Shown: positions 23,893-60,174 of the stretch, piece after piece | How the letters are laid out: each line of letters begins with the position of its first letter | How positions within the stretch are numbered: position 1 is the first letter of the stretch | From: Hirudinaria manillensis | Lineage: Eukaryota > Annelida > Clitellata > Hirudinida > Hirudinidae | NCBI GenBank assembly: GCA_034509925.1 | Contig: CM067532.1 | Span: forward strand, 4,544,142-4,608,141 | Reading direction: 5' to 3' | DNA length: 64,000 nt | The notes under the pieces: generated by a model | The model's database searches: none | Told to the model about the DNA's origin: nothing | Seen by the model: only the letters and a program-made list of their open reading frames with translations | Made by a program: the position numbers and the translations under genes

Positions 23893-23956
23893 ATGATACT
23901 TCCAGAAATTGCGACCTTATTTTTTGTTTTTGGGGTTGTTTCGGGACAATCACCAA
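23893..23956 (+). CDS. Signal-peptide exon, unit 2/3 copy
   Basis: ATG to GTAAGA donor, 64 nt, phase 1; core LFFVFGVVSG. It pairs with the domain exon at 25276. Confidence 0.6.
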
Positions 23957-27206: not shown

Positions 27207-27644
27207 TAATACTGACACCCATCAAAGTTAAATTTTTTTTTATATGAACAACTTTCTGACCTTCATAATTAATCTCCATAATCGGCCACGGTTTACGGAA
27301 AATTCATCGCCCGTAAGTTCATCGCGTTAGCATTGAAATTATCACGTGATGCGTTCGACAAATGCAGAATTAAAGTTCAAAGCTTTTTACTTTGGATAAC
27401 GCCAAAACTATTATACAATTGTCATTTTGCATGAAATTAACAGCATGGAAATGAAAATAATAATAAATTTAATTTACCAATTTAAGAATAAATGTATATT
27501 TTAAAATAAATATCTATAAATAGGAAGATTTCGTAAATATTAAGAGCGATATTTATGGCGAGCTCTAGAGATTTTAACGATTGTTTGTTATTTTTTAGCG
27601 ACCAGCAACAAGTGAGGACTTTCGAGAAAGTTGTTGATATTGAA

Positions 27645-27860
27645 GTTTAAGTGCACATTAATTTGTCACCAGTTTAAGTGCACATTAATTTGTCACCAGT
27701 TTAATTGCACATTAATTTGTCACCAGTTTAAGTGCACATTAATTTGTCACCAGTTTAAGTGCACATTAATTTGTCACCAGTTTAATTGCACATTAATTTG
27801 TCACCAGTTTAATTGCACATTAATTTGTCACCAGTTTAATTGCACATTAATTTGTCACCA
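27645..27860 (+). repeat. 27-bp minisatellite, 8 copies (unit 3)
   Basis: Eight copies; the last three carry the T variant, a pattern different from units 1 and 2. Confidence 0.9.
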
Positions 27861-27987
27861 GTTTAACTTATAGTTACATGTTTAATTGAAACAAATCATT
27901 TTATTGATAACTTATTATTTTTAGCAAACTCAACACTATTTCCTCCAGCAACAAGTGAGGACTTTTAAGAAAGTTGTTGATATTGAA

Positions 27988-28041
27988 GTTTAAGTGCACA
28001 TTAATTTGTCACCACTTTAAGTGCACATTAATTTGTCACCA
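27988..28041 (+). repeat. Second 27-bp block, 2 copies (unit 3)
   Basis: One copy fewer than units 1 and 2. Confidence 0.85.
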
Positions 28042-29151
28042 TTTTAATTTATAGTTACGTGTTTAATTGAAATAAATCAGTTTATTGATAACTTATGAAC
28101 TCACTTAATTTTTGATCCATGTCCACAACGATTATTACCACAACGAAGTTCCTTTGATCGTGTAGTTATTAACCTTTAGCCTTTTGTTTTAAATTCTTTT
28201 TGATTGAATTCCTTCAACGTCAATGGTACTATTTTACAACGAATATTCAGTTGAGCAAATAATTTAACCGAGTGAGAACTTCAATTGTTAAGCAATAGCA
28301 CGCATTCTGCTGTAGTAAAACCTCTTGACTCGGAAATAAAACTGCAACTTATTTAGAAGTATTTTTTTCTTCATAGTGATTCATAAAATATGATTACATA
28401 ACAAGTTCTATGAAGGCGTTGGTCTGGAAAGGTTACGTGAAACTTGAAAACTCGATAATAAGTACCAAGATATTCTTTTGGGGAAGGGAAGGGGATTATG
28501 AACCCACAAATCTCTTCATCGAAGGCTTAAACAATTTGGTATGATTAAGTGCTTCATATTGGCCTAAATTGGTCAATCAGGTAGCCATTTCCTGCAATTC
28601 TCAAAGTGTTAAATACATTTACTTCAGAAAAATTGTCGACTTTATAATTAATTAGATAATTGACTATCATTTCATCACCAGAAATTAAAGGTGTTACTAA
28701 TACTTGACTGCGGATTTAGATCAGGATGCATCACCAAACTTGAGATAATCAAGAAATATATACTTCAAAATTTTTATGACTTTTGCTTATTTTTTGACCT
28801 GCAATCGACAGTATATGAGAAGTATATTATAATTATTTCAAAATCGCGATTGTATTTCATTTAAGAGAAATGTTTTTTAAGGCCTTGCCACATTTAAACT
28901 TGCTGCTTATAAGATTCCTTAACCATTTTTAAACATTCCTAACAAATGACCATCCTCCACATCCAGCTTTGAACAAAATGTAATTCACATTAGTAATAAA
29001 TTATTTAATTAAATTAGTTTAATTAAATTTTCAAAAGAATAAAATATAAAATGTAGAACAAACCTTGATAATTACATTACTAGCAAAAATACATATGATG
29101 AGAATCAAGAATAAATGTTATTTAAAACATAGTACAACACTTTTAACTAAC

Positions 29152-32523: not shown

Positions 32524-33560
<1,037 letters not shown>

Positions 33561-34070
33561 GTTTATGGTACGAGCACACGCCCCAAAGTGTGACGAATAT
33601 AAAAGATTACACCATTCTATGGGACTATGCAATTATCACGGACAGGAAAATATTGGCCAACAGACCTGACATTGTCATCCATGACAGGAGATCCAAGTCT
33701 TGCCTGCTAATCGATGTTTCAGTCCCGGATGATAAGAACATCGCGCTCAAAGAAGCTGAAAAAATTAGCAAATACAAGGACCTGGAGATTGAAATCAACC
33801 GGATGTGGAAAGTGAAGTCTAAAGTCGTTCCGGTAATTGTAGGAGCGCTCGGAACGCTAAGAAAAGACTTTACAAAGTATGTAGAGTTGATACCAGGACG
33901 ACCAAAGACTTCGGAGATTCAGAAGATCTCCTTACTGGGCACTGCCCACATTCTTCGGAAAGTTCTTGGATGAATTGCTGAGAGCACTGGTAGTGCTCAG
34001 CATTCATTCATCACCGGCTGTGAGACCGAGAAGAAGCAGGAAAAATGTGTATAATAATAATAATAATAAT
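33561..34070 (+). mobile_element. 3' fragment of an RLE retrotransposon ending in (TAA)7
   Basis: A frame open from about 33563 to TGA at 33971-33973 encodes WYEHTP, then NRPDIVIHD and LIDVSVPDD, the PD...D core of a restriction-like endonuclease. It ends with a PGRP...LLGTAHILRKVLG tail familiar from many invertebrate retroelement proteins. About 76 bp of 3' sequence follows, then seven TAA triplets at 34050-34070. Only the C-terminus survives. It lies between two TAA arrays. Confidence 0.65.
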
Positions 34071-36209: not shown

Positions 36210-36436
36210 ATATGGAGAACATTCAGAGCAAACGCTTGGAAAGCAAGGAAAAGAAGAAGGCCGAGAAGAACATTCATTAGATTGTACTTTATCTAATTTA
36301 TAATATTATATTTAGGCTACTGTTAACAGTCCATGGGTTTTCCCGGGCCCGTCTGAGGACTCTAAAATTAGCGATGAGGTTCACTGTTTGCGTGATGGTT
36401 TTACGGACGTAATCCGGGCTGAATAAAAGTTTTGAA

Positions 36437-36442
36437 AAATAA

Positions 36443-36484
<42 letters not shown>

Positions 36485-36512
36485 TAATAATAATAATAAT
36501 AATAACAATAAC

Positions 36513-36543
<31 letters not shown>
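36437..36543. repeat. (AAT/AAC)n tail between two retrotransposons
   Basis: About 35 triplets, mostly AAT with some AAC, form the tail of the upstream element and directly abut the 5' end of the next one. Confidence 0.95.
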
Positions 36544-36889
36544 GTGCGTCTCGAGCGAGTGGTCGTGCGGCTGTTTTTCACGAATTCTCGATAATTTTAC
36601 GGTTTTTGCGGCAGTTTTGCTTTTTTTTCTGACCATTTCGTGTCCCCTACATTCCGTTTAGGATTGTGAGACCATTCTCAAGTTCAAAGGGGAAAAACTG
36701 AAGTTGAACAGCGTAAATTTTTCTGTCGACGTCTTGCATTGTTCTTGACTCCACAACTTCAGGAAAACAGAAGAGAAAGAAGTCATTTTAAGCTTGTTTG
36801 CTTCCGAGTACGTCTGCTAGTCGATGTTTTTGTGAATTTTTGGATTTAATTCAACTTGAAGAATCGTCGGAAAGAACAAGAAGTAAACA

Positions 36890-39800
36890 ATGCAAACCCG
36901 CGCGCGCACCTTGTTGGCTCTCACAAAGGTGAAAGACTGTTCTGATCCTTCTGAGACTTCAGTGACTGTACAGCCAAAGTGCGAATATTGTAATGCGGAA
37001 TTCAAAACATCCAAAGGAGCAAGAATTCACGAAAGTCGCGTCCATCCAGTTCAGTGTCACGCAAAAAGGTCAGGAAAAAGCTACGGAAAATGTAGATGGG
37101 ATAAAGAGGAATCCCATGTGATGGCAATGTTGGAGATAGAACTGAAGCAACAAGGAGTTAGATTCATCAACATTGAACTCCACAAACATTTCCCTCACCG
37201 AACTTTGGCCTCCATTCGAGGACATAGAAGACAGACAGAATACAGAACTATTCTCCAACAATGCATCAGTAAAACCAGGTCCTCAGAAAATTTTCAGACG
37301 TCATTAGCCGAGAGTCCAACTGAGCTGACTGCGAGTAGAAATTCTGCTTGCGAAGAATCATATGAGGACGTTCACTAGGGACAATCAAAAGAACTGTGGA
37401 GGAATATGTCGAGAGCTGAAGCTGGACTTAATGACCAGGAAAGGAAAAGAATCAATATCGCCCTCTCCAGACACTTCCCGGATGTGAGTGTTAGGCGCAT
37501 AAAGAGAATCAGAAACAAGCCTGGTTACAAGAGCCTTCTAAGCAATGCCTTTCAGGATTCTGTGGCCTTGAGACAGACTGAAAACCAGATTTTAGGAATG
37601 CCGCCTACGAATGAGGAGAAAGAGAAAATAGTCAGCAACTCAATTGCAATAGACAATCAGTTAAAGTTGAAGCAATTTGTGATTGAAAGATACCAAATGA
37701 TCCATCTAGATGGTGAAGAGTTCTCCAACCTCATAAACGAGAAGCTCCCGAGAACAGAGAAAATCTCACTGATTAATAAGGAATATGAACAGTGGATCTC
37801 AACTCAAATTCCACAGAAGATCAATAGCAGTGAGCCCAACCAACCTGCCGATCGTGCTGAAAGTGGACACAGAAACAACAATCACGTCCAAAGCAAATCA
37901 GAAAACAAATGCAGAACTTTCCGGAAAACAAAAATCAGGGTGTCAAAAAAGGAACAGAAAAAGTTAGAACGACAGAAGTGCTATGCTAGTTTGCAAAAAC
38001 TTTTCCGAAAAAGTCCATCATCGGCAGCGCACTCGGTTTTGAAAGAAGAATATGAAGCCCAGACAGGCGCTTTCCCTGCGGGGTTGGCGGATTATTGGAG
38101 CGAGATCTTTGGGGAGACATCGGTGGAGGATGACAGGCCTGTGGTGACGATCAGAGACATCGCAACAGAAATGCAAGATCCGATCACCAAATGGGATGTA
38201 GAGATTGCATTCCGGGGACTAAAGGACAGCAGCCCTGGACAGGATGGCATTCGAAAAAGGCATCTTGCAAAACTCAGTTACGACGATCTCGCTGTTCACA
38301 TGTCTCTCTGGTTGCTAACAGGATTACCTCCCGCATCATTCAAATCGGGAATCGTCACATTCATTCCGAAGAATAAAGAGGCCTCGACTCCGAGCGACTA
38401 TCGACCTATCACTGTAGGTCCGATTATGGCGCGTCTCTTCCATCGTATCCTTGGAGGTAGAATGTTGGGGAATTGGCCCCTGTCATGGAGACAAAAAGCT
38501 TTCTGTCCGGGGGATGGCATTGCACAAAATCTCTTTCTCATCAAATCAATAATTCAAAAAAAGAAAGAACAAATCCAAAAACTTAACCTGACATTTGGCG
38601 ACGTCACCAAAGCTTTCGACTCAGTATCCCATAAATCTATCCTCTGGGCTGCTGCTAGACTCGGCACTCCACCTCTCCTCTTAAACTACCTGGCGGAGCT
38701 GTACAAAGAAAGTGAGGTTCACTTTAAAGCAGAGGGAGTACTTAGTAGAGGGGTACAGGTGAAAAGAGGAGTTCGTCAAGGAGACCCGATGTCCCCCAAC
38801 TTATTCAATGCGGTCATGGATATGATAACCAGCGAACTGGATCAATCAATTGGTGTCACGGCTGGCAGAAATTCAGCGATCAGATGCAATTATATTGCAT
38901 TCGCTGATGATCTGGTGGTGATGTCAACAACTGACATCGGAATGAAGAAGTTGATGGAGCAACTTGAAACTGCAATGGGCAGCGCAGGACTTAAGATCAA
39001 TCCAAACAAGTGCGTTACACTCAGAACGGAAACCCATTGCAAGGAAAAACACTGGATAATCAATCCTACGCCCTACATTAAATTTGAATCACAGGATATC
39101 AAAGCAATAGACGTCTCACAGACTTACAAATACCTGGGGATACAGATTGGAGTTCGAAAGCAGCCAGTGTCGATCGGTTATGAAATTCAAAAGTCTCTCA
39201 ACTCCATTTCAAAGGCACCAATTAAGCCTTGCCAACGCCTATATATTTTAAAAGTCCATCTGATACCAAGCCTCGTTCACAAACTTACCTTTGGCGAGGT
39301 CAACCTCGGTTCTCTGAGTTCCTCAGATACCGCGATTAGGAAAGCAACAAGACATTGGCTTCATCTTCCAAAGGATGTCCCAAAGCCATTTTACCATGCT
39401 CCCGTCAAATCCGGTGGTCTGGGAATACTCCCACTTAAACAATGGGTTCCCCGGCTCAGAATAAATAGATTGACAGATATCTTCTCTGAGACAGGTGGTC
39501 GTAAAGATGAATTCCTGTTGGATGTTCTTAGGAACAACACCCTGATCATGAGAGAATTCCGGAAATTTGGAACGTCGGAGGCAAAACAAGTAAAACTGGA
39601 TTGGAAAGTGGCGACCTCAGAGAGCCTATACAAAACTGTAGACGGTTATGGATTAAGATCATTCACCAGATGAATTGGAATGAGTGATTGGATTTCAGCA
39701 GCGGTTCCAAGAGTTCCATCTGGCCAATACATCAAATGCATAAAAGTCCGAGCGGCCGCCCTTCACTGCAGACTCCGAGCATCGAGATGGAATCCTCTGG

Positions 39801-40369
39801 CTTCAAGGAGATGCGGGGAGGGCTGCAATTCCTTCGAATCGCTGGGCCACATGATCCAGAGATGCCCGAGAACGGATGGCCCAAGGCATGAAAGACACAA
39901 CGCTGTCGTCAGGGAATTAGAACGGGAATTACGAAAAAGGGGTTATACTACGGTAATTGAGCCCCGTATTCCCACAGAAAAGGGACTCAAAATTCCTGAT
40001 TTGTGTGCCTGGACACGTGACCTCTACATAGTGACTGATGTTGCCGTGACATCTGATGATTATGATTTAGACAAGTGTCATGAGAGCAAGGTTTCAAAGT
40101 ACGACATTAAAGATGTTCATGATTGGATGTTGAGGAATGCCCCAGTCGGCGTCCAAAGAATGCTTCTGAGGGTTGGCGCCTGCGTTTGCAACTGGAGAGG
40201 AGTCATGAGTGCAGAATCATACAGATTCTGGAGAGAGTGCGGCGCTTCGAAGACGAGTTTAATGTACGTTGTGCTCTCGGTCCTCAGTCACAGTTACAAA
40301 ATCTGGAGGGCTCACAGGTGTCCACTTCCGAGGGCAATCGCACTTTCTCGGACTGCGAATTCTCAATGA
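36890..40369 (+). pseudogene. R4/Dong-like ORF: zinc finger, RT, CCHC, restriction-like endonuclease, two stops
   Basis: All three parts (36890-37378, 37406-39673, 39680-40369) lie in the same frame. They are separated only by TAG at 37376-37378 and TGA at 39671-39673. Part 1 has a C2H2 finger (C-x2-C-x12-H-x4-H) near residue 31 and a Myb-like W..EE segment. Part 2 has the RT boxes FGDVTKAFDSVSH, GVRQGDPMSPNLF and FADDLVVMS. Part 3 has C-x3-C...H-x4-C and the endonuclease core KIPDLCAW...VTDVAVT...SKVSKYD. About 1160 codons in total. Confidence 0.75.
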
Positions 40370-41002: not shown

Positions 41003-41377
41003 ATGATACTTCCAGAAATTTCGACCTTATTTTTTGTTTTTGGGGTTGTTTCGGGACAATCACCAAGTAAGATTTTATTTGTAGAAACTATTAATTTATT
41101 GAAATAACATTAATTGATTAAATTAATTAAATTAATAAAACAGCTCGGGCACCCTGCGTTTGGTTGTTAAAATCCGACACCAATACAAATGGTGGAACAT
41201 CCACTTCCTATTTGAATCTGGCTGACTGTCAGACAAAGTGTTTGGCAAATAATTCTTGCGCCTATGGACTTGATTGGGATCCTAATAATGCCAATGGAAT
41301 CAGATGCTGGTTTTCTACAGGTACTAACATTGGTTCGGCACCAGGAGTTTCTCATTATTACCAAAGCTGCGCGGGAA
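41003..41377 (+). CDS. Secreted PAN-like protein: signal exon plus first domain exon
   Basis: Exon 1 (41003-41066) encodes MILPEISTLFFVFGVVSG and a few polar residues. A 77-nt GT-AG intron follows (41067-41143). Exon 2 (41144-41377, 234 nt) encodes a complete domain with CVW, SDTNT.GG, DCQTKC, CAYGLDW, CWFS and a last cysteine in QSCAGS, then a GTAAGA donor. Both borders are phase 1. The short intron makes this the cleanest copy of the plus-strand family. The frame after the donor must continue in a further exon, most likely 43507-43755. Confidence 0.65.
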
Positions 41378-43506
41378 GTAAGAAACTCACTTAATTTTTT
41401 ATCCGCAACTATTGCATTGCAACAATTAAACATGTCGGTTTTTCATAATAATGGAATGTTAAACACAATCAATCTATCGAAAGATCTGGGTTGAGGCATG
41501 AAAGAAAGAATCAAATTTTTTGATCTGAGACAGTGGGTGGAGGACTATTTAAACTTTAAATTGGATATCTACTCACATTTTCCAAATCAAAACTGTATTT
41601 TAAAATGAAAACATACCAAATTTCGATCATCCGAGCAGGAAACATCCTGTGAACAATTTTTCCTAAATATAAGTTTTCCAATTTCAATGAAAGTGCCGAT
41701 GGATTTTGCACATAGAAATGTGAATAAATATGTCACATACGTAACATATATGTCACACCCTTAAATAAACCCTAACGCCTCCTTAACCCTGAGATGACAT
41801 AATCCTTAGATGCCGATGACAAAGTCATGCCAAAAATGTGGTCCGCTTAAAGATATGACCACCACTGTGTATTCTTCAACGTGCATATTCTCTCAATTTC
41901 ATCAGAATAGTATTTAAATCACTTTTAATAACAAGCGGATGATGCGCTCATTTGCAAAAAATATTTTTTTGTACACTTGACCTCCCCCTTTAGCTGAAAC
42001 TGGAATTGTATTTAAAGTAACCATCCAATTAATCAATTAATTACAATTAAATTTTTTTAATTTTTCCACTCGTAAATTTGTACATTTGTGTATTTATCCG
42101 ATCTTTTGAGTGTCTTTTGATATAGAAGACTTTGCCATTACTACCGCATGCGGGAGCGATTCCAATTCAGCTACTTGGGTGCAAATAGATCTGTGCTGAA
42201 AAATAAGTTGTGTCAATTTTTTTTTTGTGACAATATAATAACATTTGAATATGCAAACTATTTTATGAAAGTGTATTAGTTATCCTTAGAAATGCGCCGA
42301 CTTGCCGAGTTTGCATAAATCAATATTTTTTATTTATTTATTTTTATTTTTTAACTAGCCAGTGCCATCTCTAAATGTTGTTACATTGCCAAAAAAAATT
42401 GTAAAATTTATTATTGAAGACGTAGCAGGCGTTTACAAGTGGAAAAATAAATAATTTAATTTAAGTTTTTTGGGCCAGCCTAACATACATGTAAGCTTAA
42501 ATAAGGTATGTAATGTAAGGCATTCATTTTTCTTAAATTTATGAAGGTTTGTTATTACGAAAATTGAAGAATTGTGAAAGCTAGTATCTTTGATAAGCGT
42601 AGGTTCTGGAATACTTTGGCGGACGGGAACAAAATTTGGAGGAGAGAGAAAAATTTAACAACGGGAGGGACCATTATCGAACAAAATGCATGAAAATATT
42701 CAATTTACAGGTAGAACCTTCCCTCTATTCTGAAGAAGGCAATCTATCAGAATGTATGTTATCCATAAAATGTATCTGCTAAACCGAAATCCAGTACAAC
42801 TAAGGTGTTAGACCGTCTTAGATTATAGGCATCTGGTCTGAAAGCGGTCTACGTTTTGGTTTTTGTAAATTACATTTTAAGAGGTTGAACCGAAAGCTTT
42901 ACAGACAGTATCATATTACAACTTTAAAAACTACTTTTTGTCATAAATTCAGATGTTTAAATTTTACCCCTCAAAAATGCTTTCCAGCCGCTTTTCTTGT
43001 CATGTCAATGAGTCGCCTTCTATCGAACTTGTTAACAATAGTTACACAAGCATTCTATACTTTTATTGTACACCTATCATAAGGTCTCATTGGGTGTATA
43101 TGCTGAAGGAAATGCATTTGAATTGGATTAAAAATAGCCGTGATTTTCATTTAAAGTTAAACGATTGTTTAGAGTTAAAGTCCAACGCTTTTTACTTTGG
43201 ATGACGCCAAAATTAGTATGCAATTGTCATTTTGCTTGGCATTAAAGGCATGGAAATGAAAATAATAATAAATACCAATTTAAGAATTAATGTAATTTTT
43301 AAAATAAATATTTATAAATAGGAAGATTTCGTAAATTTTGAGAGCGATGTTTATGGCGAGCTCTAGAGATTTTAACGATTGTTTGTTATTTTAGGTGTAA
43401 CGACCGATTCTTTCTTCACCTTACCTCCATCTTTAACAACAAGTGAGGACTTTCAAGAAAGTTGTTGATGAGATTTCATATGTGATAAACTATTACTACA
43501 TTGCAG
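41378..43506 (+). other. Putative intron and spacer without recognised genes
   Basis: Up to about 41820 the sequence follows the older unit copies. 41850-42880 is AT-rich with no resemblance I can name. 42885-43440 resembles 4370-4680, upstream of the truncated exon there. Confidence 0.45.
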
Positions 43507-43755
43507 CAATTACATCGACTTGCAATTGGGTACTATCCAATAACACGAATACGAAAAATGGTAATCTAAAACCAGACGCTAATACGCTTGATGCTTGCAA
43601 GGAGAAGTGTCTTAGCCAACTTGATTGTGTATCTGGTCTCGGATTTGACTTCAATGCCAACAACCCAGAGGGTCAAAGATGTTATTTGTCAACGACCAAG
43701 ACTTTATATCCGACTACTGGAATCGTACACTACTCGCCGGAAAACACTTGTTCAA
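43507..43755 (+). CDS. Second domain exon of the plus-strand PAN-like gene
   Basis: Acceptor ACATTGCAG, 249 nt, phase 1, possible donor GTAACT. Cysteines are STCNW, DACKEKC, a DCVSGLGFDF variant, RCYLS and a final NTCSS; NNTNTKNG follows the first. CYL in place of CWF is shared with domain 3 of the minus-strand gene. The frame stays open past the donor to a TAA at 43821-43823, adding 22 mostly hydrophobic residues, so it could instead be the last exon. Confidence 0.6.
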
Positions 43756-47026: not shown

Positions 47027-47265
47027 TCAAGATGACACGCAAGTATAAGTAAAATGGGATGTACCAGGATAGGTGGTCGTGCTAGTACTTGCAGAGAACC
47101 AACATCTGTAGTCTGGAGCAGCCGTAGGATTGAAATCGATTCCAAATTTACACAGAGTAAATCTATATGTAATGCAGTTATTTCTGCACGAGTCAACTGT
47201 TGTATAGGATGGCTGAACAGCACCTCCAGGAGAGTTTGTGTTTGGCACCTCAGACCAAGTGCAAG
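47027..47265 (-). CDS. D16 terminal exon
   Basis: 239 nt including TGA. CTWSEVP, NTNSPGG, SCRNNC, CKFGIDF, CWFS, HFTYTC, then VSS and stop. The stop a few residues after the last cysteine and the lack of a phase-1 donor mark it as the 3' end. Two linker exons (47500-47511; 47367-47381) precede it. Confidence 0.6.
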
Positions 47266-50200
47266 CTGCAGATGGAGTAATTCGTATAATTTATCCAATT
47301 ACAGCAAAGAATTTCATTTCGTATACAAATTAGAGAAACAATTAAATGTATTAATTAATTCTTTACCTGCTGGTGGGGCAGCTGTTAAACATATTTTAAA
47401 TTAAACGTAATTAAATCAAATTAAAACGTATTGATAAAGTTTTAACGTTATTAAAATATTTATTCGATCACAAAAATGAATAATATCAAAATTTCTAACC
47501 AGTGGCTGCACCTGAAAATAATTACAAAAAAGTATGATTAATAAATTAATTATAAATTAATATATTAAATCGCAATAACTTGGGTGAATTTGAATTCTAA
47601 TATAAAAATATAAGCCCAAGTGTTTGTTTACTTGGAATGATATATAAATTAAAACAATCAAACGTAGAACAATATAGATAAAGCAAAATTTCAATCCAAT
47701 AATATTTTGAAATATAAATAAGGACTTGCCAGGACAAGTTAAATAGTAATGCTGTACACCAGGATAGGATCCAGTAATATTTGTTTGAGAGAACCAGCAC
47801 TGTGCTCCAACTGAATTACCAGGATTCCAATCAAACCCCAATTTGCAATCTGAGTCTTTTCGACGAAAGCACTCGTCTCTGCATTGATCTAAGGTCGTTA
47901 ATGACGGTTGTACAAGTCCTCCTTGGGTATTGGTGTCGTTCAAATTGGACCAAGTGCATCCTGTAGATGTTTATTTATGTATAAGAAAATTTTAACAACC
48001 AGTACGATGCGATGTAATATAATAACAATGAAAAACAAATGACAATTTTTGAAGTACTGGTTTTGGAAGAAATTTATGTTAATCTCACCTTGTGCACCTA
48101 AAATTTAAAAAAATTTAATTATTAATATACAAATACACAATATGCTTAAAAGCAACGGCATTTTTAATCAAATAAAATATTCAAACCTGTCGTAGTAAGA
48201 CCTGGAAAATTAAAATAAAAGAGTAAAAAATAGAAAAAACTCTTTGCTAAGTTGCAATTTTGACAGGGCAACCAAAATAAAAGAAAAGCTCGACAACTTA
48301 CCATTTGTTAAGCAATTGTAATGATCCACTCCATTAGCAGAAGTGGTTGTGGCTGAACTTGAAAACCAACATTGCGATCCAACTGGGTTGTTAGGGTTAA
48401 AATCGAATCCAAATTTGCATGTGTTTGGGTTCTGTTGGCATGAATCTTGACATTGTTGCAGAGTTGTTATTGACGGTTGAACAGTTCCACCAGGACTGTT
48501 TGTATTGCTTAATTTATTCCAGGTACAACCTGATATTTATACAAATGCGATAATAAAACTTTTCCGATAGCTCCACAAATGCCAATCAGCCAAATTGCAG
48601 ATATATAAAGGAAATGGGAAATTCAATTTCAAGTCGATAATGTGATAGAATTAACATCCGTGACAAATAACTTCAAAATTTCGGAACTTTTGCTAATTTT
48701 TGAGCTGCAATCTACAGTATATGAGAAGTATATTATAATTATTTCAAAATCGCGATTGTATTTCATTTAAGAGAAATGTTTTTTAAGGCCTCGCCACATT
48801 TAAATTTGCTGCTTATAAGATTCCTTAACCATTTTTAAACATTCCTAACAAATGACCAACCTCCACTTCCAGCTTTGAACAAAAAATTATTAATTAAATT
48901 AGTTTAATTAAATTTTCAAAAGAATAAAATATAAAATGTAGAACAAACCTTGATAATTACATTACTAGCAAAAATACATATGATGAGAATCAAGAATAAC
49001 AGTTATTTAAAACAACTAACTGTTGCAAGAGTAAGTATAATGATCCACTCCATTAGCAGACGTGGTTGTGGCTGAACTTGAAAACCAGCATTGCGATCCA
49101 GTTGGGTTGTTAGGGTTAAAATCGAATCCAAATTTGCATGTGTTTGGGTTCTGTGCGCATGAATCTTGACATTGTTGCAGAGTTGTTATTGACGGTTGAA
49201 CAATTCCACCAGGACTGTTGGTATTGCTCGCTTTATTCCAAGAACAACCTGGTATTTTGCGATCATGGAATGTTCTACTTTAGCAACAAAATAGGTGGTC
49301 AATTATATATTTGCATTTGATTGTAGAAGGTGATATAAAAATATCTATTTGTTTATCTTGATATTAATGGCAAATGACCAACCTCCGATTCCAGCTTTGA
49401 ATAAAAATTATTTCCAAATGATAATCTACTGTTTAATACATTCAAGAGGCCAATTAACAAAAACAAATTCAACTCACTAGTAACAGCTGAAAAGATAAAG
49501 TATAAAATATGAAGAAAACATTAAAAAATTATGTAACGAAATGGAAAAAGGCATATGATAATAATAAAAGATATGAATTATTTAAAACACAGTACAACAC
49601 TTTCAACTAACAGTTGCAAGAGTAAGTGTAATGATCCACTCCATTAGCAGAGGTGGTTGTGGCTGAACTTGAAAACCAGCATTGCGATCCAACTGGGTTG
49701 TTAGGGTTAAAATCGAATCCAAATTTGCATGTGTTTGGGTTTTGTTGGCATGAATCTTGACATTGTTGCAGAGTTGTTATTGACGGTTGAACAATTCCAC
49801 CAGGACTGTTTGTATTGCTCGATTTATTCCAAGAACAACCTGGTATTTTTGCAATTACGAAAAGTTATATTTTAGCAACAATATAGGTGGTCAAATATAT
49901 ATTTGCATTTGATTGAAAAAGGTGATTTATATATCGAAACATGTAAAATTCATCGTGACGTATATTAGTACTTAACTCATCTTTAGAGTATCCTGTTTGT
50001 CTTAAAATGATGTTAATGCATTTTAAGAAGTAATCTACCATTTGTAAATATTATAAATTCAGTAGAAAAATTATTTTATGTTCGAGTTGTTTGATCTTGT
50101 GTTTTTACGATTGTTGTCAAACACTTTTGGTTTAAATTGCAATCAGGCGGACTAGTCATGCTATGTTTGATGGATGGTGCAAAGGAGACTTGGTTGCGAC

Positions 50201-53200
50201 TGCATATATTGGTCGCTCTTGTGCTAGAGGGGCTTTTTGTCTTTCGGGAGTATTGTTGGTTCGGACATCATGTGTCATTTGGAATAATCTGCAATTTTCT
50301 TTCTGGCAAGTCAATCAATCAAAGTACCTTCTGGCACACGGAAAAAGTTCCGAGTGAACTCAAATCAATCTGTATCATCGACATAAGTATGGACACAAAT
50401 ATATAAGTGTATATAAAAGTACACACATATATATAGTACTGTTTGTTTATCTTGATATTAATGGCAAATGACCAACCTCCGATTCCAGCTTTAAATAAAA
50501 ATTATTTCCAAATGATAATCTACTGTTTAATATATTCAAGAGGCCAATTAACAAAAACAAATTCAACTCACTGGTAACAGCTGAAAAGATAAAATATAAA
50601 ATATGAAGAAAACATTAAAAAATTATGTAACGAAATGGAAAAAGGCATATGATAATAATAAAAGATATGAATTATTTAAAACATAGTGCAACACTTTCAA
50701 CTAACAATTGCAAGAGTAAGTGTAATGATCCACTCCATTAGCAGAAGTGGTTGTGGCTGAACTTGAAAACCAGCATTGCGATCCAACTGGGTTATTAGGG
50801 TTAAAATCGAATCCAAATTTGCATGTGTTTGGGTTCTGTTGGCATGAATCTTGACATTGTTGCAGAGTTGTTATTGACGGTTGAACAATTCCACCAGGAC
50901 TGTTTGTATTGCTCGCTTTATTCCAAGAACAACCTGGTATTTTGCGATCATGGAATGTTTTACTTTAGCAACAAAATAGGTGGTCAATTATATATTTGCA
51001 TTTGATCGTAGAAGGTGATGTAAAAATATCTATTTGTTATCTTGATATTAATGGCAAATGACCAACCTCCGATTCCAGCTTTGAATAAAAATTATTTCCA
51101 AATGATAATCTACTGTTTAATACATTCAAGAGGCCAATTAACAAAAACAAATTCAACTCACTAGTAACAGCTGAAAAGATAAAGTATGAAATATGAAGAA
51201 AACATTAAAAAATTATGTAACGAAATGGAAAATGGCATATGATAATAATAAAAGATATGAATTATTTAAAACACAGTACAACACTTTCAACTAACAGTTG
51301 CAAGAGTAAGTGTAATGATCCACTCCATTAGCAGAAGTGGTTGTGGCTGAACTTGAAAACCAGCATTGCGATCCAACTGGGTTGTTAGGGTTAAAATCGA
51401 ATCCAAATTTGCATGTGTTTGGGTTCTGTTGGCATGAATCTTGACATTGTTGCAGAGTTGTTATTGACGGTTGAACAATTCCACCAGGACTGTTTGTATT
51501 GCTTGCTTTATTCCAAGAACAACCTGATATGTTTGCAGTCATGATAAGTTCTACTTTGGACAACGAAATAAGTGGTCAGAAAGAAATCTGTATTAACAGT
51601 TCGTAAAAGCAATTTAAGATATAATCAATCACTCTATGTATAGCCCTGGTTATTGAACATGTCACATAGTCGTAAAATTTAAATTGTTATCAGTCCGCCA
51701 ATATGTAGGCCCATGTATGTAAGCTGACTTTATAATTTACAATCACTTGGACTTTGACAATATATATCAAAACATGATCACGGAAGCGATAAATGATGGA
51801 GAGCTGAAACTTTGAGGGAAAGAAGCGTGGAACCATATCCCTCACGCATCAATTAAAGTGGATAGACGAAAGGTAAGTGGAAACCCTGTCAATGTTTAGT
51901 TTAAAATTGACGTTGCCAAAGTGAATCAGAATTTGAAAAGTTCCAGAGTCAGACCCTTGGCTTATCGCCCAAACACCACTAAATTTGGCTGAAAAGAAAA
52001 CCGAGAATGAAATCGAAACAAAGAAATAAGTGAGAGGGTAAGAAATCGGTCTGAAGTGATTAACAATCCAAATTAGCATTGTCAGGCTCCAGAAATCCAA
52101 ATTTGTCTTTCAATGGTCAAACTGGTTCACGTATACAACATATGTACCATATGTTATTTTGCAATGATCTTCAATTTTCTTTCTGGTAAGTTAATTAATT
52201 AAATAACATTTTTTCCTCTATAGTAGAAAAAGTTACAAGCAAACTGAAATCAATTTTTAGTCTCAATGTAAGTATGGAAATAGACAACTATATATGAGGT
52301 ATAAATATAAACGTATCTATTTATCTAGACATTAATTGCAAATTCCAACCAACCTCCGCTTCCAGCTTTGAATAAAAATTATTTCACATTTATTGTTTAT
52401 TTAGTAAATATTGCTTAATAAATTAATGAGGCTAATCAACAAAAACAAATTCAACTCACTAGTAACAGCTGAAAAGATAAAACATAAAATATGAAGAAAA
52501 CATTAAAAAATTATGTAACGAAATGGAAAAAGGCATATGATAATATTAAAAGATATGAATTATTTAAAACATAGTACAACACTTTCAACTAACAGTTGCA
52601 AGAGTAAGTATAATGATCCACTCCATTAGCAGAAGTGGTTGTGGCTGAACTTGAAAACCAGCATTGCGATCCAACTGGGTTGTTAGGGTTAAAATCGAAT
52701 CCAAATTTGCATGTGTTTGGGTTCTGTGCGCATGAATCTTGACATTGTTGCAGAGTTGTTATTGACGGTTGAACAATTCCACCGGGACTGTTTGTATTGC
52801 TCACTTTATTCCATGCACAACCTCCAACTTAATATTAGGTTAAGTAACTTGTTTTTAGATTATAAAATTCGAATGTGATTGTGACTTGGAAAATAAGAAT
52901 AAATAAATCTTGGATATGATAAATGGTTAACATGATTAATTTCTACTTTATAGTTAATATAAATTATGATTTACATTAATTGCATTAACATATGAGTTTA
53001 AATTTAAAAACTATAATGGATCATAGTCAGAAAAATAATGTTATTAAAATTTCTAACCTCCACTGGCTATTTGTAAGAAAAAATAAGCAAATTACTTGAA
53101 GTGCATGGCTACTATAAACCAATCTAATAATAATTAATAATCACTACATTTATTCAATTGTTAAATCATAAATGTAACAGAATATTGTGTTTTTCTTCAG

Positions 53201-56200
53201 ATATTCACTTACGTGTGGATGTGATTCCTGCAACAAAATAAATTTTTAATAAAATTATAATTGGCAAGGAGAACCTCCAAAATATGCATAAATTTATACA
53301 ATATGTTAATTTAAATACATTCGATTTAATTAAATTTTGTTCTATGGGACACGTGACATATGTGTAATATGTGGAATATATTTTGAAAACTACCACTTGA
53401 TATAACATTCAAAAACTTACCAGGGTTATTACATACGTAAGTGTAATGATCCACTCCATTAGCAGAAGTGGTTGTTGCTGAACTTGAAAACCAGCATTGC
53501 GATCCAACTGGATTGTTAGGGTTAAAATCGAATCCAAATTTGCATGTGTTTTGGTTCTGCTGGCACGAATCTTGACATTGTTGCAGAGTTGTTATTGACG
53601 GTTGAACAATTCCACCGGGACTGTTTGTATTGCTCGCTTTATTCCAAGAACAACCTTCAAAAATTAATGGCAGTGTGGATGATGCCGATGATGAAAGAAG
53701 ACAATAACAAAAGCATTTATGTTTGACCGTACTTAAAAGTACGAATTAGACATTTATTGGAATAATGATTTATAAACATATTATTTATATTTTATATTGT
53801 ACATAATCGTATACATATGTATATGTGCTTTGATTAGGAAGCTCAAAACCGTTGACAACAGATCTGCCGCAAGGAGGCTAACATGCACACGAATATTATA
53901 ACTGAACTAAATTAATCTTGTAATATCCATCATTTCTTACTCATGCATATTAAATTCATTATTATTATAATTATTATTATATGGCAATTGATATCTTGTT
54001 CCCGTTTGTTATTGGCGAAATAGCGAAATATATAACTACATAAACAATGTATTTACATCTTTCTACCAGAAGAATGTAGTGCAAATTTATTGATCTCAAA
54101 TCAAATTATGGTGCGAAAGACTCATAATTTATATTTAAATATTTACCATACAAGTCATGTGAATAATAATAATGTGATGCAGAAATGTTAAAGGTTATAA
54201 ATGTCATTATTTTATGTTAGAATTAAAATGATTATTTTTTTAAATTTGGCTTATATTGATTCATGGCATCAATTACCTTGACAGACGAGGTTGAGATGAT
54301 TGATTCCAGGAGCCGAAGAAGTAGTATTTGCCTGCGAGATCCAGCATTGAGTTCCTACACTGGACGCCGTGTTCCAATCAATTCCATATTTGCAGCTGGT
54401 GTCCTTCTGTTGTTGGCAAAGATTCTTGCACTGATCGAGCGAAGTCACAGAATTCTGCAGTATCCCTCCAGGACTGTTTTGATCGGTTAACGTAATCCAC
54501 GAACAACCTTCATTTGTTAATTTATATTGAATTCGATTTAGATGAGACATTTTAGTTCAGTTACTTACCAGAACTTGGACCTGAAGGCATTGAAATTAAT
54601 AACAATTAATTATTAATATCTGATTTCAAGTAATTAACAGGAAATATACTGAAATATACTGAAAATAATTTTAAATACAAACCAGTGGTTGTGATTCCTG
54701 AAATTTTTGAAAAATTGGTAACAAAATTTGTAATAAAACATTTGAAAACTTTACAAATACTCACCGTTGCAATTGTAATTGTAGTGAGTAACTCCAGGAT
54801 TTGATGTTGTTGTCGCCGACGTGGAAAACCAACACTGCGAACCAGTTGCGGCGGTTGGATTCCAGTCAAAGCCGAACAAGCAGGTGGTTGTTCTTTGCTG
54901 GAGGCAGGAACTTTGACATTGCTCGAGAGTCGTAGGCGAACTCTGAACATTGCCGCCTGGACTGTTGGTATTAGCCAATGGCGTCCATACGCATCCTGAC
55001 CAATCAACTCAGATGATAGTAGCAGTTCTAATTCACAATTAACACATTAACCGCGATGTGTTGTAAAAACTATTTTTATTATTAGTTTCAATTTGTTTAG
55101 GTTTCACATTAGTTTATTCCGGTCTTCTTTATCTTTGATTTGAGGAGTTGGATAAATAATATCAGTCAAATTTTTGATATAAAAAGCAATTCTAGGATCT
55201 AAGAAAAGATTAAATTCTAAATGTAATGTCCTCACCTCCAGCTGCAAAAACAAATGCGGTTTATTATTAACTTTAAAATAAAAAAAAAACATGTTCTTTC
55301 CGACCATCGTTTTATTTGTGAAAGCGTTAACTACAATGAAGACGATTTATAATAACTTGATAATAACTTAATAAACAGGACACTCACACGGGTAAGTACT
55401 TAGCATCATAAATAGATTTTGTGGAATTAACCGTACCTCGGTAATGGAGGTTATTATCTTAGAAAGGAGTAACGGATTCTTAATATAATAATCACAACAA
55501 TCAGCTAATATCAGAAAATATCGCTTACCAGTCCCTCCGTTATCTAAAATGGAAAATATTTAAAATTTAGAGCTTGAATGTAATGTATGTCATGCTGTTA
55601 ATATAATAATGTTGATATATTTCTTTGCAAACGTTAGCCATTATGTATCTGCTCCTTATGTGTTTTAAAGTTAAACTTTTGCATGTTTTCATACTTAGTT
55701 AGCAGCTCTAAGATTTTGGGGAACAACAAAAGTTTGGTTACTGAGAGATCTTACAATGAGTCAATGAATCTTAACCACTGATATTTAGAATGCATCTGAG
55801 AATTCTTAAAAATGATTTAATATAATTTATTAATCATTCGAAATGAATAATAATTAATAAATAATAATTTCAATAACTTTTAATATATAATATATCGTAT
55901 TGAATACAAGTTAAGTGTTCAATTACTGTAATTGATTGTAATGATTGTAAAGATTACAACGCTTTCAGCGCGGAGAAACCATAATTTATTGTAAAACGAT
56001 TTTAATTCATGTGACAAGAAAATATTTTAGAATGACTTTCTGTTTCTCGATTGGACTGTAGTTGATGCCAATGCATTTATCTTTTGAGTGCCCATCGGGA
56101 TATCTACATTTGTTTTAAACCTCCACCCTATGGCGCTCCTAGCGGCATAGGGTAGGTATCGAACACGACACATGACAGTTGATGGTCAGGATGTTTCGAA

Positions 56201-59200
56201 GGACTTCATAGTATATTACAAAAATTAAAAAAAAAAGATCATGTTTCAGATGTTTAGGATGCGATGCGATCACTCGGAAGTATTGTTGTCTTGAAGGGAA
56301 AGGTTTCATGAGTTCATCACGCATCAGAGGAAAGAGGTCATTTAAGAAAATGGTAGGAAAGTTTCTAAAATACCGACAAACAATTTAATGGAGCATGGTA
56401 GATGGAGAACCATGAGGTAAAATGGTGTTCCAAAAGGAAATTTTTAAATTAATGAACTACACAAATTATCCACCTGAGCACACGTAGTTAAAATGCCTGA
56501 CTCCAACATAGGTGCCGAGAGAATTTGATGTCGAAAACCAACATTGTGTGCCAACAGCAGCATTTCCGTTCCAATCAAATCCAAACCGGCAAGTGGTAGC
56601 TTTTGAACTGAGGCACGTGTCTCTGCACTGTTCGTAAGTCGTTACGTAATTTTGCAGGGAACCACCGGGACTGTTGGTGTCACTCAAACCAACCCAAGAA
56701 CAATCTGGACCGGATTTTTAAGATTTTCAATCGCAGGAAAATTGTTTGTTGATCAGAAAGTAGGATTTCAGTCAAGTGGTGAAGAAAGCATAGGAGAACA
56801 TCGTGTCAAAAAGTGTTGCATTTTGTTACTTGTATTAGGAGGTTAAATAAAAGTTTCGAAAACTTGTGAGCATCATTTTGATTAACCGGTTGTTTAAGTT
56901 AATTTTAATTATCATAATTGTTATTGTGATTATTGTTTGTTTGGTTAGTTAGTTTTAAAAAAGTTAAATTTAAATTGGAAGTTCATTAAAAAAATGTCAA
57001 ATTAGTCACCGTAACGGTTAAAAATTAAAAACGGTTAAAATATAGTGCGATTAATTTTATTAACGGTTATTTAGCTAAATATCAAATCGCATCAACATCA
57101 AAACCAACGAACTTCACTTACCCGAACTGCACTGGGCATTGTAATGAGTGACTCCGGGATAAGATGCCGTGGTTTTCGACGTGGAAAACCAGCACCTCGA
57201 TCCTTGAGGCACGGTTGGATTCCAATCGAATCCAAACATGCATGAAGAATTCCTCAACTGGAGACAAGTGTCTCTGCATTGTTCGAACGTCGCCAACGTC
57301 GACTGGAGCGCCCCTCCAGGACTGTTGGTATCGTTCAATGCATTCCACGAACAGGAATAACCTGCTCATTTTAAATGTTTCAATGGTAGAATTTGAGATA
57401 ATTTCTGAACGGTTAAAACGGTACTTATTCAATTAACATTAATAACAAATATTAATTTAAAGAATAGAAATATTATTTACTTCCGGCCGGAGTTGATGTA
57501 ACGTACAAGGAGGTGGTGCCTGGCAGATTTATAATTCTCGAGTATAATATTTATAAGGTAAATGTAAGTGAAAACATTTTTGTAAATTTTAACCTCATAA
57601 AATAAAATAAACTGAAAATTTTCATTCTATAAAAATCTCACTGTTGCATTTGAGGCTAAAGTGAGTGATTGAAGATGCCCCTGAATTGAGAACCGACATG
57701 GTCGACAAATAGCATCTCGACCCTTCGGGGTTGGAGGGGTTCCAATCGAAGCCATTTCCCGAGCATTTGTCTGTGGAAGCGAGACAAGCAGCCTTGCAGT
57801 CCGCAAGGGTATTTGCTTGTTGAACTTGGTTACCATTTGGACTGTTGGTATTGGAAAGCTCGACCCAAGAACATCCTGAAGTTAATAATAATGTGTTTAA
57901 TAATTTGTATCGAATCCGAACCTTTCAGGAAGCGCTTTTTACGTCGAACTGACTGAACTTTAATGGGTTAAAGATAATCACATTCCATTCTCTACTTCAA
58001 TATAATATCATTTTCATCTAATAATTTTGTACTTACATCACTAAACAGATAATTGGCACTGTTTTATCATTCCATTTTGTTTATTTATTTATTCGATTTT
58101 ATGAAAAAAAAAATTTAAAACCTGCAGGAGCTTGTCCAGCTCCACTAGAATCTAGAACAAGATACATTCCGTTTGTTATTAATCACATTACAACCATTTA
58201 ATTCGACAAGAACTAATAAATTAGTCGTATTTTACTTTATTAACGTATTTAGAAATATAATTTCAAACAGCAAATTAATTACATTGAAAACCAAAAGTTA
58301 ATTAAACTTTCGCTAAAATAAGCATTAAAAACATAGTTACCTGTTGCCGGTCCTCCGGCTATAAAGAAACATTGATTAAATTATTAATTTTTAACGAATT
58401 CCATATAATTTTGGGATCGAAACGTCAAATATTTCAATTATTTCGAAACATTTTCACAGCAACACATTTCACAAAAAGTGACCTTTCAATGGCCATTACT
58501 TACAGCAAACGAGATGGTAATGAGTGACTCCGGGATATTTGTTGACTTGAATGTCATTTTGTGATTTCAAGGTGAACCAACATTTCTCTTCCGCTGCTGC
58601 CCCAGAGTTCCAATCGATGCCCGAACACCAACTCGTACTCATACAGCCATTTTGGCAGGTGTCCAGTTGAGTCAAGGACGGTTGTTTGACGCTTCCTTGG
58701 ATGTTGCTGTCAGGGTATTGGGTGTATTGCAGAGTGGAGGAGCATGCTGGAATTAAAGCAATGTTTTAATCGTTAATTCGATATTGGTATATTTAAGCCG
58801 TCATGTAATTCCTTGTCGTCCCTAGATGCATGAACATGGGTACAGAAGCGACAAAAAAAGGCCAACGAGAGCCTCGCAAAGGCGAGATGGAAACACTTCT
58901 AGTAGTTGCAAAGCAACCCAAAGAAGCCAATAAGAGCTTTCAAAATCGTTCCAGTCCCGGCAGTAACAGACGCTATAAGATGGCCATTGAGAGTCGCCCA
59001 CAGCCAAAGTGTGAATCTAGGGGGGAATAAACCGACAAGGATATCATGGATGCAGCCCAATCCCAGAAAAAGTAAGGGATTTCAAAGGACCGAAACATTC
59101 GGGGAACCTGAGGATCTCTGTCGATAAGCTTCGAGGCTCTTATTGGCTTCTTTCGACATGGATTCGTAACTTTTTTCGTACTCACTCTATCATTTTCACG

Positions 59201-60174
59201 GTTCGAAGTTGTGTGAGGAATTAATTTATAGTTTAGTTTGTTGAGATAAACAATTAAATGACGATAAACAAAATATCTGCAAACAAAATTAATTTTATAC
59301 CTGGCCTGGCAGTTGCTCCGCTGGGAAGTGTAGTCGTCGTCGAACCTTGTGTAGCAGGGGTTGTTTTAATAGCTGTAAAACAATAAGCTGTATAAATAAT
59401 TCATTTCCCATGAGCCATCAGATCCGACCATATGCTCGTAATTATGCAATGGACGTTTTTTCTATAACTCATAATTAAGAATAACATTTCCAGATAACTA
59501 AAGACTAACGAAGACACATTTACAAATTAATTTCTAAAGATCGTAAAAGTGGGACATACATGGACACGTGTAATGAGAGACTCCTTGTGCCACGGTGGTG
59601 ACACTAGTCCTGGAAATCCAGCACAAAGTTCCTGTGCCGCCAGTTGTGCTCCAGTCAAATCCGTAAAGACAGGCCGTGCTACTCTGCAGGCAGGCATTTT
59701 TACAGTCGTCCAAAGTCCTTGCTAACGGCATATCAGTCCCCCCGGGCGTGTTCGTATTTGGTTGTTCATTCCACTGAGAACAAACAGTGCCTGTGGGTCC
59801 AATGGGAGAGTTTTGCCAGTAAATTCCAACCATAAATATCCGTTGATGTTAATTGATTAATAAAAGCAATTCAAGAGCTTCTAGTTTTAATAAAATTAGC
59901 TTTGTTGGGCGCAAAAAGTAACATCGTTTAAAATTGATCCAAAGTGAGCCTTGTAAGATTGCCTTGTGCCTTGTTATTCCTCCCGACAACGAACTGATTT
60001 AGAAATTACTTTAAATCTCTATGTACATTTGTCTCTATGTTACTTACCCCCTTTTTCGCTTAATCAAAACGTTAAAAAACAAAATGAAGATTAAAATAAA
60101 TATAAAATCATTCGCTTACTTTGGGAATTGGCAGAAAGAAATAGCGAAACGAAAATGAAGCAGTGCCTTAACAT
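47027..60174 (-). CDS. Secreted protein with 16 PAN/Apple-like domains, about 40 coding exons
   Basis: Inferred exons in reading order. Signal 60120-60174. Domains (D) and linkers (L): D1 59560-59790; L 59301-59372; D2 58504-58746; L 58341-58358, 58122-58139; D3 57642-57875; L 57481-57519; D4 57122-57361; D5 56474-56704; L 55529-55543, 55236-55241; D6 54765-54995; L 54683-54697, 54569-54580; D7 54277-54507; D8 53421-53654; L 53213-53227, 53058-53066; D9 52594-52821; L 52460-52468, 52354-52365; D10 51296-51523; L 51162-51170, 51067-51078; D11 50706-50933; L 50572-50580, 50477-50488; D12 49612-49839; L 49478-49486, 49383-49394; D13 49021-49248; L 48861-48872; D14 48302-48529; L 48187-48201, 48089-48097; D15 47730-47960; L 47500-47511, 47367-47381; D16 47027-47265 with TGA. 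All introns are phase 1. The sum is 4134 nt, or 1377 residues. No transmembrane segment is visible. PAN domains bind proteins or glycans; the ligand here is unknown. The small linkers are inferred from splice signals alone. Confidence 0.65.
47730..47960 (-). CDS. D15 exon with a GC donor
   Basis: 231 nt. CTWSNLN, DTNTQGG, QCRDEC, CKLGFDW, CWFS, HYYLTC. The only in-frame phase-1 donor reads GCAAGT instead of GTAAGT, a GC-AG intron. Acceptor CATCTACAG. Confidence 0.6.
48302..52821 (-). CDS. D9-D14: homogenised run of near-identical domain exons
   Basis: Six 228-nt domain exons (52594-52821, 51296-51523, 50706-50933, 49612-49839, 49021-49248, 48302-48529) share CSWNK.SNTNSPGG, QCQDSC, CKFGFDFNPNN and CWFSSSATTT almost residue for residue. 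Between D9 and D13 each pair is separated by the same 9-nt then 12-nt linker exons. Introns are also near-identical, so the duplicated unit is a cassette (domain + 9 + 12) with its introns. D14 starts CTW and has a different end (HYNC), fused to another donor. About 0.5 kb of foreign sequence lies in the introns at 49920-50450 and 51560-52340. Confidence 0.65.
53421..53654 (-). CDS. D8 exon
   Basis: 234 nt. CSWNKAS, NTNSPGG, QCQDSC, CKFGFDF, CWFS, HYTYVC, then a short NNP end and donor GTAAGT. The body is nearly identical to D9-D14 but the end differs, so it is the edge of the homogenised block. Confidence 0.65.
54277..54507 (-). CDS. D7 exon
   Basis: 231 nt. CSWITLT, DQNSPGG, QCKNLC, CKYGIDW, CWIS, HLNLVC. 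Donor GTAATT. Preceded by 15-nt and 12-nt linkers at 54683-54697 and 54569-54580. Confidence 0.65.
54765..54995 (-). CDS. D6 exon
   Basis: 231 nt. CVWTPLA, NTNSPGG, QCQSSC, CLFGFDW, CWFS, HYNYNC. Acceptor GGTCAG, donor GTGAGT. Confidence 0.65.
55236..55543 (-). CDS. 15-nt and 6-nt linker exons (55529-55543; 55236-55241)
   Basis: The 15-nt exon lies between CATTTTAG and GTAAGC and gives Asn-Gly-Gly-Thr within split codons. The 6-nt exon lies between TTTTTGCAG and GTGAGG and adds two residues (Ala-Gly across the junctions). Both keep phase 1. An exon this small rests entirely on its splice signals. Confidence 0.45.
56474..56704 (-). CDS. D5 exon
   Basis: 231 nt. CSWVGL, DTNSPGG, QCRDTC, CRFGFDW, CWFS, HFNYVC. 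No linker exon was found between D4 and D5. Donor GTGGAT is weaker than the others. Confidence 0.65.
57122..57361 (-). CDS. D4 exon
   Basis: 240 nt. CSWNALN, DTNSPGG, QCRDTC, CMFGFDW, CWFS, HYNAQC. The acceptor GAGCAG is followed by a Tyr-Ser insertion before the first cysteine. Donor GTAAGT. Confidence 0.65.
57481..57519 (-). CDS. 39-nt linker exon
   Basis: Between CTGCCAG and GTAAAT, phase 1. It encodes TTSLYVTSTPAG, again Thr/Ser/Pro-rich. Confidence 0.5.
57642..57875 (-). CDS. D3 exon
   Basis: 234 nt. CSWVEL, SNTNSPNG, DCKAAC, KCSGNGFDW, RCYLS, HFSLKC. CYL and the inserted Gly-Asn before GFDW resemble the plus-strand exon at 43507. Confidence 0.65.
58122..58358 (-). CDS. Two 18-nt linker exons (58341-58358; 58122-58139)
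   Basis: The first lies between TTTATAG and GTAACT and gives GGPATG. The second lies between GTGGAG and GTTTTA and gives GQAPAG. Both are phase 1, in frame, and of similar Gly/Pro/Ala character. Confidence 0.5.
58504..58746 (-). CDS. D2 exon, divergent domain
   Basis: 243 nt, the longest domain exon. Cysteines: CSSTLQY, TCQNGC, WCSGIDW, CWFT, HLVC. The usual NTNSPGG is SNIQGS here, and the first C-x-W is lost (CSS). Donor GTAAGT. Confidence 0.6.
58822..59180. repeat. GC-richer intronic insert, possible SINE or retroelement tail
   Basis: The stretch sits in the intron between D1 and D2 and differs in composition from its flanks. The motif GAAGCCAAT(A)AGAGC occurs forward near 58922 and inverted near 59130. 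A related AAGAAGCCAACGATAGC occurs at 32460 near the 3' end of the retroelement at 31585-32523. GGCCATTGAGAGTCG is also shared (58981; 32401). A short element borrowing that retroelement's 3' tail would explain this. Confidence 0.4.
59301..59372 (-). CDS. 72-nt Thr/Pro/Ser linker exon
   Basis: Between TTTTACAG and GTATAA, phase 1 on both sides. It encodes 24 residues rich in Thr, Pro, Ser and Ala, including TTTTLPSGATA. This resembles an O-glycosylated mucin-like hinge between D1 and D2. It is the longest of the linker exons. Confidence 0.6.
59560..59790 (-). CDS. D1 exon of the 16-domain gene
   Basis: 231 nt. VCSQW start, PNTNTPGG, DCKNAC, CLYGFDW, CWIS, HYTC end. Here the last cysteine directly follows HYT. 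Acceptor CCCACAG, donor GTATGT. Confidence 0.65.
60120..60174 (-). CDS. Exon 1: signal peptide
   Basis: Encodes MLRHCFIFVSLFLSANSQ plus one base, then the donor GTAAGC. The hydrophobic core FIFVSLFL and small residues SAN before the expected cut fit a secretory signal. The start is supported by the TATA box 51 bp upstream and by the phase-1 donor that fits D1. Confidence 0.65.

Follow-up and report, generated by a model that had tools for sequence, protein, structure and literature searches.

The stretch of the genome of the leech Hirudinaria manillensis analyzed here (64,000 nucleotides (nt); contig CM067532.1, positions 4,544,142 to 4,608,141; hereinafter the window, to which coordinates refer unless indicated otherwise) carries on its minus strand, between positions 60174 and 47027, an array of 16 exons that each encode a PAN domain. 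The array is best explained, with fairly good probability, as one gene whose 16 PAN domains are joined by linkers from symmetric phase-1 microexons and whose predicted product is a multivalent extracellular binder. As sequence analysis, the modular 16-PAN gene proposed in the initial annotation is confirmed. Phase 1-1 modularity and PAN arrays are already known, and the symmetric linker microexons are the unusual part.

Structure of the gene and identity of its domains

A signal-peptide-like exon, 16 exons for PAN domains and 23 for linkers make up the reconstruction, which has the 40 exons counted initially. PAN exons were detected with a hidden Markov model (HMM) that was seeded with six of them and then iterated, which yielded the 16 exons of the gene and others elsewhere in the window; their borders were chosen manually, from AG and GT (or GC) dinucleotides close to the conserved cysteines. 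With these hand-read borders, phase 1 applies to the start of all 16 PAN exons and to the end of the 15 that possess a donor, PAN16 terminating in TGA, so that the description of 16 PAN-like domains, each on one phase-1 exon, holds. Each PAN exon opens, after the AG acceptor, with two bases of a split codon, and in each of the first fifteen the last base ahead of the GT donor (GC in PAN15) is the first base of another codon; in all 15 PAN exons with two internal borders, hand-chosen as these are, the domain is flanked on either side by a phase-1 intron. The 39 introns of the model (61-930 nt; 38 GT-AG and one GC-AG) are all in phase 1, and 17 of the 39 split codons at the junctions encode glycine. 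The curated linker exons are 6-72 nt long, each a multiple of three and of phase 1-1, and every exon of the model keeps the frame, in line with the earlier claim that all internal exons are multiples of three. The assembled coding sequence amounts to 4146 nt (1381 amino acids) and has its sole stop at the end, with no internal stop at the junctions or elsewhere. Exon 1 (60174-60120; curated model and leader scan) consists of the ATG, a hydrophobic 18-residue leader, MLRHCFIFVSLFLSANSQ, and a phase-1 donor; the leader reads as signal-peptide-like, which agrees with the proposal of a secreted protein.

Judged by profiles and structural models, the domains are PAN. In a Pfam scan, 13 of 22 PAN exons match PAN_1 (PF00024) at E up to 1, and PAN8 exceeds the curated cut-off of this family (23.4 vs 21.4 bits). 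Across the 22 exons, C1, C26, C30 and C53 are invariant and C37 is present in 90% or more. AlphaFold models of two of the 16 domains, PAN8 and PAN2 (pLDDT about 93), adopt the PAN fold, and their top matches in the Protein Data Bank (PDB) are the PAN/apple domains of plasminogen, HGF, factor XI and the leech anti-platelet protein (LAPP); LAPP (1i8n) is the best match of PAN2, and LAPP and plasminogen are level as the best matches of PAN8. Lectins, growth factors and a fungal oxidase are also among the PDB neighbors. The initial assignment to PAN thus stands up to the profile check, and the WSC profiles suggested alongside it found no counterpart, WSC not being one of the seven Pfam families that the 22 exons match between them at E up to 1. 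NCBIfam gave zero matches among these exons at E up to 0.1. The sequence search for LAPP and saratin returned neither at E up to 1, and saratin came up with E 0.7 in a further search; with PAN2 only, neither protein was listed at E up to 10 and only antibody heavy chains were returned. With nothing significant found, the sequence route to LAPP and saratin was dropped.

PAN9 to PAN14 are 89-97% identical to PAN8, the remaining nine domains of the gene 35-65%, and four intron stretches among the recent copies are 89.5-99.2% identical. In the 21 pairs of PAN8-14, the first 70 codons give mean proportions of synonymous (pS) and nonsynonymous (pN) differences of 0.107 and 0.022, respectively (ratio 0.20). 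Because exons and introns alike are near-identical, this comparison indicates that whole units, each a PAN exon with its linker exons, were copied recently and, given the pN/pS ratio, the copies seem to be kept under purifying selection. The idea that exons can be gained, lost or skipped is upheld for gain only, PAN8-14 being recent copies with their introns included. Mutually exclusive use of PAN8-14, as in Dscam, was set aside: since these exons are near-identical and conserved, such a choice would add little variety.

A single gene, as initially claimed, is the simpler reading of the sequence. On the minus strand of 61500-47000, the only leader-type candidates are at 60174 and 54741, the latter less hydrophobic, and of the two polyadenylation signals tried only ATTAAA at 46818 occurs between 47026 and 46400. 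A division of the interval into at least two genes, such as PAN1-5 and PAN6-16, or partial decay of the array appears distinctly improbable. Such a split might be placed after PAN5, whose donor is the weakest of the training set and is followed by 1478 bases to the next PAN exon, and could draw on the weaker leader-type candidate, although this lies beyond PAN6; decay is suggested by the related three-PAN fragments at 10.9-30.6 kb, one of which is frame-broken. However, the model has one good leader and one stop, the frame is intact in all 16 domains and kept across the model, and pN/pS is low among the copies.

Support for the predicted linker microexons

The weights of the splice sites were derived from the PAN exons and the leader only. 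Of the 16 intervals that run from leader to PAN or from PAN to PAN, the chain test covers 13, with three recent copies left out. Over these intervals, open in-frame microexons form chains with a top score of 121.8, compared with 36.6 +/- 11.6 (maximum 75.2) in 100 dinucleotide shuffles and 57.2 +/- 16.8 (maximum 111.7) in 300 length-matched samples of neighboring DNA, of which 0/300 reach 121.8; the G+C content of this control DNA (0.354) exceeds that of the introns (0.293). The wrong length classes on the same strand score 75.3 (remainder 1) and 41.5 (remainder 2), and the opposite-strand chains 40.6, 61.6 and 61.9. The gap persists under stricter cut-offs: at threshold 9, the chain scores 52.4 vs 6.3 for shuffles and 12.4 for neighboring DNA. 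A chain-free count at a score of 10 or more, with recent copies included, gives 18, 7 and 6 by length class and 7, 5 and 8 on the other strand. The curated linkers make up 378 of the 4146 coding nt (about 9%, summed from the exon coordinates), and T, G, A, S or P account for 82 of their 103 residues, a composition that the hand choice may favor. A 6-PAN paralogue on the same contig (see below) likewise contains linker exons with good splice sites.

Several observations weigh against the reconstruction as a whole or in part. Among the four domains of the gene scanned first, PAN1, PAN6 and PAN16 lack a PAN_1 match at E up to 1, and the Foldseek E-values of both domain models never come down to 0.001. 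The leader criterion is loose, with 19 rows on the plus strand of the same interval, 13 of them in stretches antisense to PAN exons. When run unaided, the search recovers 15 of the 23 curated linkers exactly, shares one splice site with four and misses four, which rest on hand reading; it also proposes 10 further candidates that were left out of the curated model. The hand selection of in-frame linkers is, moreover, partly circular. Between introns, the best local alignment includes the microexon of both partners in 9 of 45 pairs vs 8.67 expected, a negative result in which any signal may have been drowned by fortuitous alignment of AT-rich DNA. In the 6-PAN paralogue, the in-frame length class scores 34.2 vs 20.9 and 26.1, values that are close and come without a shuffle control. 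Because of the exact recovery of 15/23, the 10 extra candidates and the failed conservation test, the statistics support the predicted linkers as a class and individual linkers less so.

The linker microexons might also be unused, with PAN exons spliced directly together and the candidates reflecting chance AG...GT pairs in AT-rich introns. Direct PAN-PAN splicing would preserve the frame equally well, all PAN exons being phase 1-1, so that the frame provides no test; the negative result on between-intron conservation fits this possibility, as does the fact that 8 of the 23 linkers are not recovered exactly without hand reading. Against it stand an in-frame chain score above 100/100 shuffles and 300/300 native samples, the residue composition, with the reservation given above, and the recurrence in the paralogue, which together make unused linkers improbable.

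Possible function and relation to known systems

PAN domains bind proteins or glycans. Judging from the architecture, the 16-PAN protein is most likely a multivalent extracellular binder, in which each domain, like a bead on a string, might bind a protein or glycan and the copy number would confer avidity. Sixteen PAN domains on flexible Thr/Gly-rich linkers would form a long multivalent binder, and linkers derived from their own 6-72-nt phase 1-1 exons would allow both domain number and linker length to change without a frameshift. Valency and spacing could then be altered by duplication, loss or skipping, because domains and linkers would both be phase 1-1 modules. From the predicted architecture we infer both the step to binding and that to a role in blood feeding.

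Several other roles can be envisaged for the protein. PAN domains are widely used in adhesion, Thr-rich linkers would suit O-glycosylated spacers and near-identical repeated domains would suit a structural polymer, all of which could fit a secretion with a structural or defensive role outside blood feeding (in mucus, cocoon or matrix, or as a gut lectin); this option is rather unlikely but deserves consideration. Symmetric 6-72-nt exons within a secreted-type protein recall schistosome micro-exon genes (MEGs), which, according to excerpts of one source, have short symmetric exons and apparent alternative splicing (PMC5825161), and a diversity locus in which microexons are skipped to vary the linkers could be imagined. 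It is unlikely, given that linkers occupy just 378 of the 4146 coding bases and that the recent domain copies are conserved rather than diversified. Still less probable is a salivary protein akin to LAPP and saratin that counters haemostasis by blocking the contact between collagen and platelets and that has become multivalent by domain duplication. LAPP does bind collagen (PMC7191736), but neither LAPP nor saratin significantly matches the leech domains in sequence, a fold in common proves no function, and the PDB neighbors extend to lectins, growth factors and a fungal oxidase. A more specific proposal, which is decidedly tentative, holds that a leech PAN family turned its interdomain linkers into independent symmetric phase-1 microexons, making domain number and linker length separately tunable and frame-safe, and that the reach and valency of the secreted binders are adjusted through splicing and unit duplication, in an annelid blood-feeder parallel to schistosome MEGs.

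Known systems share parts of this architecture. LAPP (1i8n) and saratin are secreted leech proteins, and the PAN fold is common to LAPP and the modelled domains; however, each of them is a single small domain, whereas the leech gene encodes 16 domains that lack a significant sequence match to either. The apicomplexan microneme proteins TgMIC4 and EtMIC5 are secreted tandem PAN/apple proteins, single domains of which match in the PDB (2ll3, 1hky and, with PAN8, 4a5v), but they come from organisms unrelated to the leech and have six and eleven apple domains, respectively, fewer than the sixteen here; we know of no phase-1 microexon linkers in them. PAN arrays exist elsewhere, too. In Patthy's account, the extracellular domains of animals ordinarily lie between phase-1 introns, and symmetric class 1-1 modules are the rule in shuffled extracellular proteins (PMC8001218). 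The leech gene resembles these metazoan proteins in placing an extracellular domain on a symmetric phase-1 exon and, as that account has it, in the frequency of glycine at its junctions (17/39), and differs from them in that its linkers seemingly are separate symmetric modules as well. Schistosome MEGs likewise encode secreted proteins with symmetric microexons, of 6 to 36 bp, that seem variable by alternative splicing, but in the excerpted source short symmetric exons make up ~80% of MEG coding sequence (PMC5825161), compared with about 9% in the leech gene, whose folded domains are on ordinary exons; the leech coding sequence is not composed mostly of short symmetric exons (378/4146 nt). Aphid bicycle genes, as excerpted, have many small internal exons of one phase and an N-terminal secretion signal (PMC9168663), but their exons are of phase 2, whereas all 39 introns of the leech model are in phase 1 and the leech gene encodes PAN domains.

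The initial claim that this exon logic is unusual therefore survives for the microexon linkers and not for phase-1-bounded extracellular domains, which are ordinary in animals (PMC8001218, in excerpt). Among the literature matches listed, as far as their excerpts go, there is no gene with PAN linkers built of such microexons and no description of a 16-PAN gene. Should the linkers prove real, the rule of exon shuffling that applies to extracellular modules would extend to linkers, and because the unit duplications are very recent and can still be seen, the gain of modules would become open to study in living populations. The host is a medicinal leech with studied anticoagulants, and the solved structures nearest to the modelled domains include a leech platelet inhibitor (LAPP).

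Exon coordinates and genomic neighborhood

All exons are on the minus strand. The PAN exons, which are supported by the HMM and the curated model, are PAN1 (59560..59790), PAN2 (58504..58746; also AlphaFold), PAN3 (57642..57875), PAN4 (57122..57361), PAN5 (56474..56704), PAN6 (54765..54995), PAN7 (54277..54507), PAN9 (52594..52821), the recent copies PAN10 (51296..51523), PAN11 (50706..50933), PAN12 (49612..49839) and PAN13 (49021..49248), all four also identified by copy comparison, PAN14 (48302..48529), PAN15 (47730..47960) and PAN16 with its TGA stop (47027..47265); PAN8 (53421..53654; pLDDT 93.3) is supported by Pfam, AlphaFold and the curated model. Linker exons on which the unaided chain and the curated model agree are those of 39 nt (57481..57519) and 6 nt (55236..55241), the 15-nt exons encoding ITTT (54683..54697), ITST (53213..53227) and LTTT (48187..48201), the 12-nt exons encoding PSS (54569..54580), GSG (52354..52365) and GIG (51067..51078, 50477..50488 and 49383..49394), and the 9-nt exons encoding VT (52460..52468, 51162..51170, 50572..50580 and 49478..49486) and AQ (48089..48097). 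In the curated model but with one splice site differing in the unaided chain are the Thr-rich exon of 72 nt (59301..59372; same acceptor, other donor) and, with the same donor and another acceptor, those of 18 nt (58341..58358), 15 nt (55529..55543) and 12 nt (AAT; 47500..47511), the last having both sites in the earlier chain-free count. The exons of 30 nt (58122..58151), 9 nt (SG; 53058..53066), 12 nt (GSG; 48861..48872) and 15 nt (APPA; 47367..47381) come from hand reading only, and the block of the GSG exon aligns with the GSG/GIG exons of other units.

The 16-PAN gene, at C7:4591168-4604315, sits in a cluster of PAN exons: a genome search with PAN8 gives at least 40 matches, all on this contig (C7) at 4.522-4.677 Mb, 16 of which belong to the gene. 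PF00024 matches at least 53 places on several contigs. The 6-PAN paralogue (L021 4280-7919), ~70 kb off at higher coordinates, looks complete, with its own leader, linker exons and stop. Between 5253 and 31586, the window contains three tandem copies of ~9.1 kb that share ~97% identity. On its minus strand, each copy carries a three-PAN fragment that shows 93-95% identity to a section of the PAN8-14 array; the second fragment is the frame-broken one. Upstream of the first fragment, in the one copy scanned, the sole leader-type candidate (15633-15570, with two overlapping starts) lies ~3 kb off. These fragments look non-functional. A second PAN subfamily occupies the plus strand (3745-7253, 14809-16410, 23893-25493 and 41003-43736), with near-identical 64-nt signal-peptide-like exons at 5642, 14809, 23893 and 41003 upstream of its PAN exons.

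Each tandem copy also has, on the minus strand, an open reading frame of 287 amino acids (8146-9009, 17316-18179 and 26399-27262) that has at least 138 matches genome-wide but none in Pfam at E up to 0.01 (its one weak match, E 0.38, is unrelated); it looks like a remnant of a retrotransposon reverse transcriptase. A 27-base minisatellite of 2 to 9 units per array is present in each copy (9391-9848, 18561-18937 and 27644-28047). On the plus strand, 33338-40369 holds two RVT_1 frames, with AAT-repeat tracts at 33373, 36438 and 40519; these are probable non-LTR retrotransposons. The G+C content of the window peaks in this region (0.488 and 0.464 per 2 kb).

Elsewhere in the genome, the leech Hirudin profile matches contig C4 at four places (E 5.8e-6 to 0.0092), three of them over the cut-off. 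A second full-length COX1-like copy (G000:C9:3026446-3027786), with a profile score equal to that of the mitochondrial contig, is likely a recent nuclear mitochondrial insertion or an assembly artefact. In the part of the mitochondrial contig examined, the recognized protein genes are all on one strand, as are 17 of 19 tRNA calls, and the order of the genes fits the annelid pattern.
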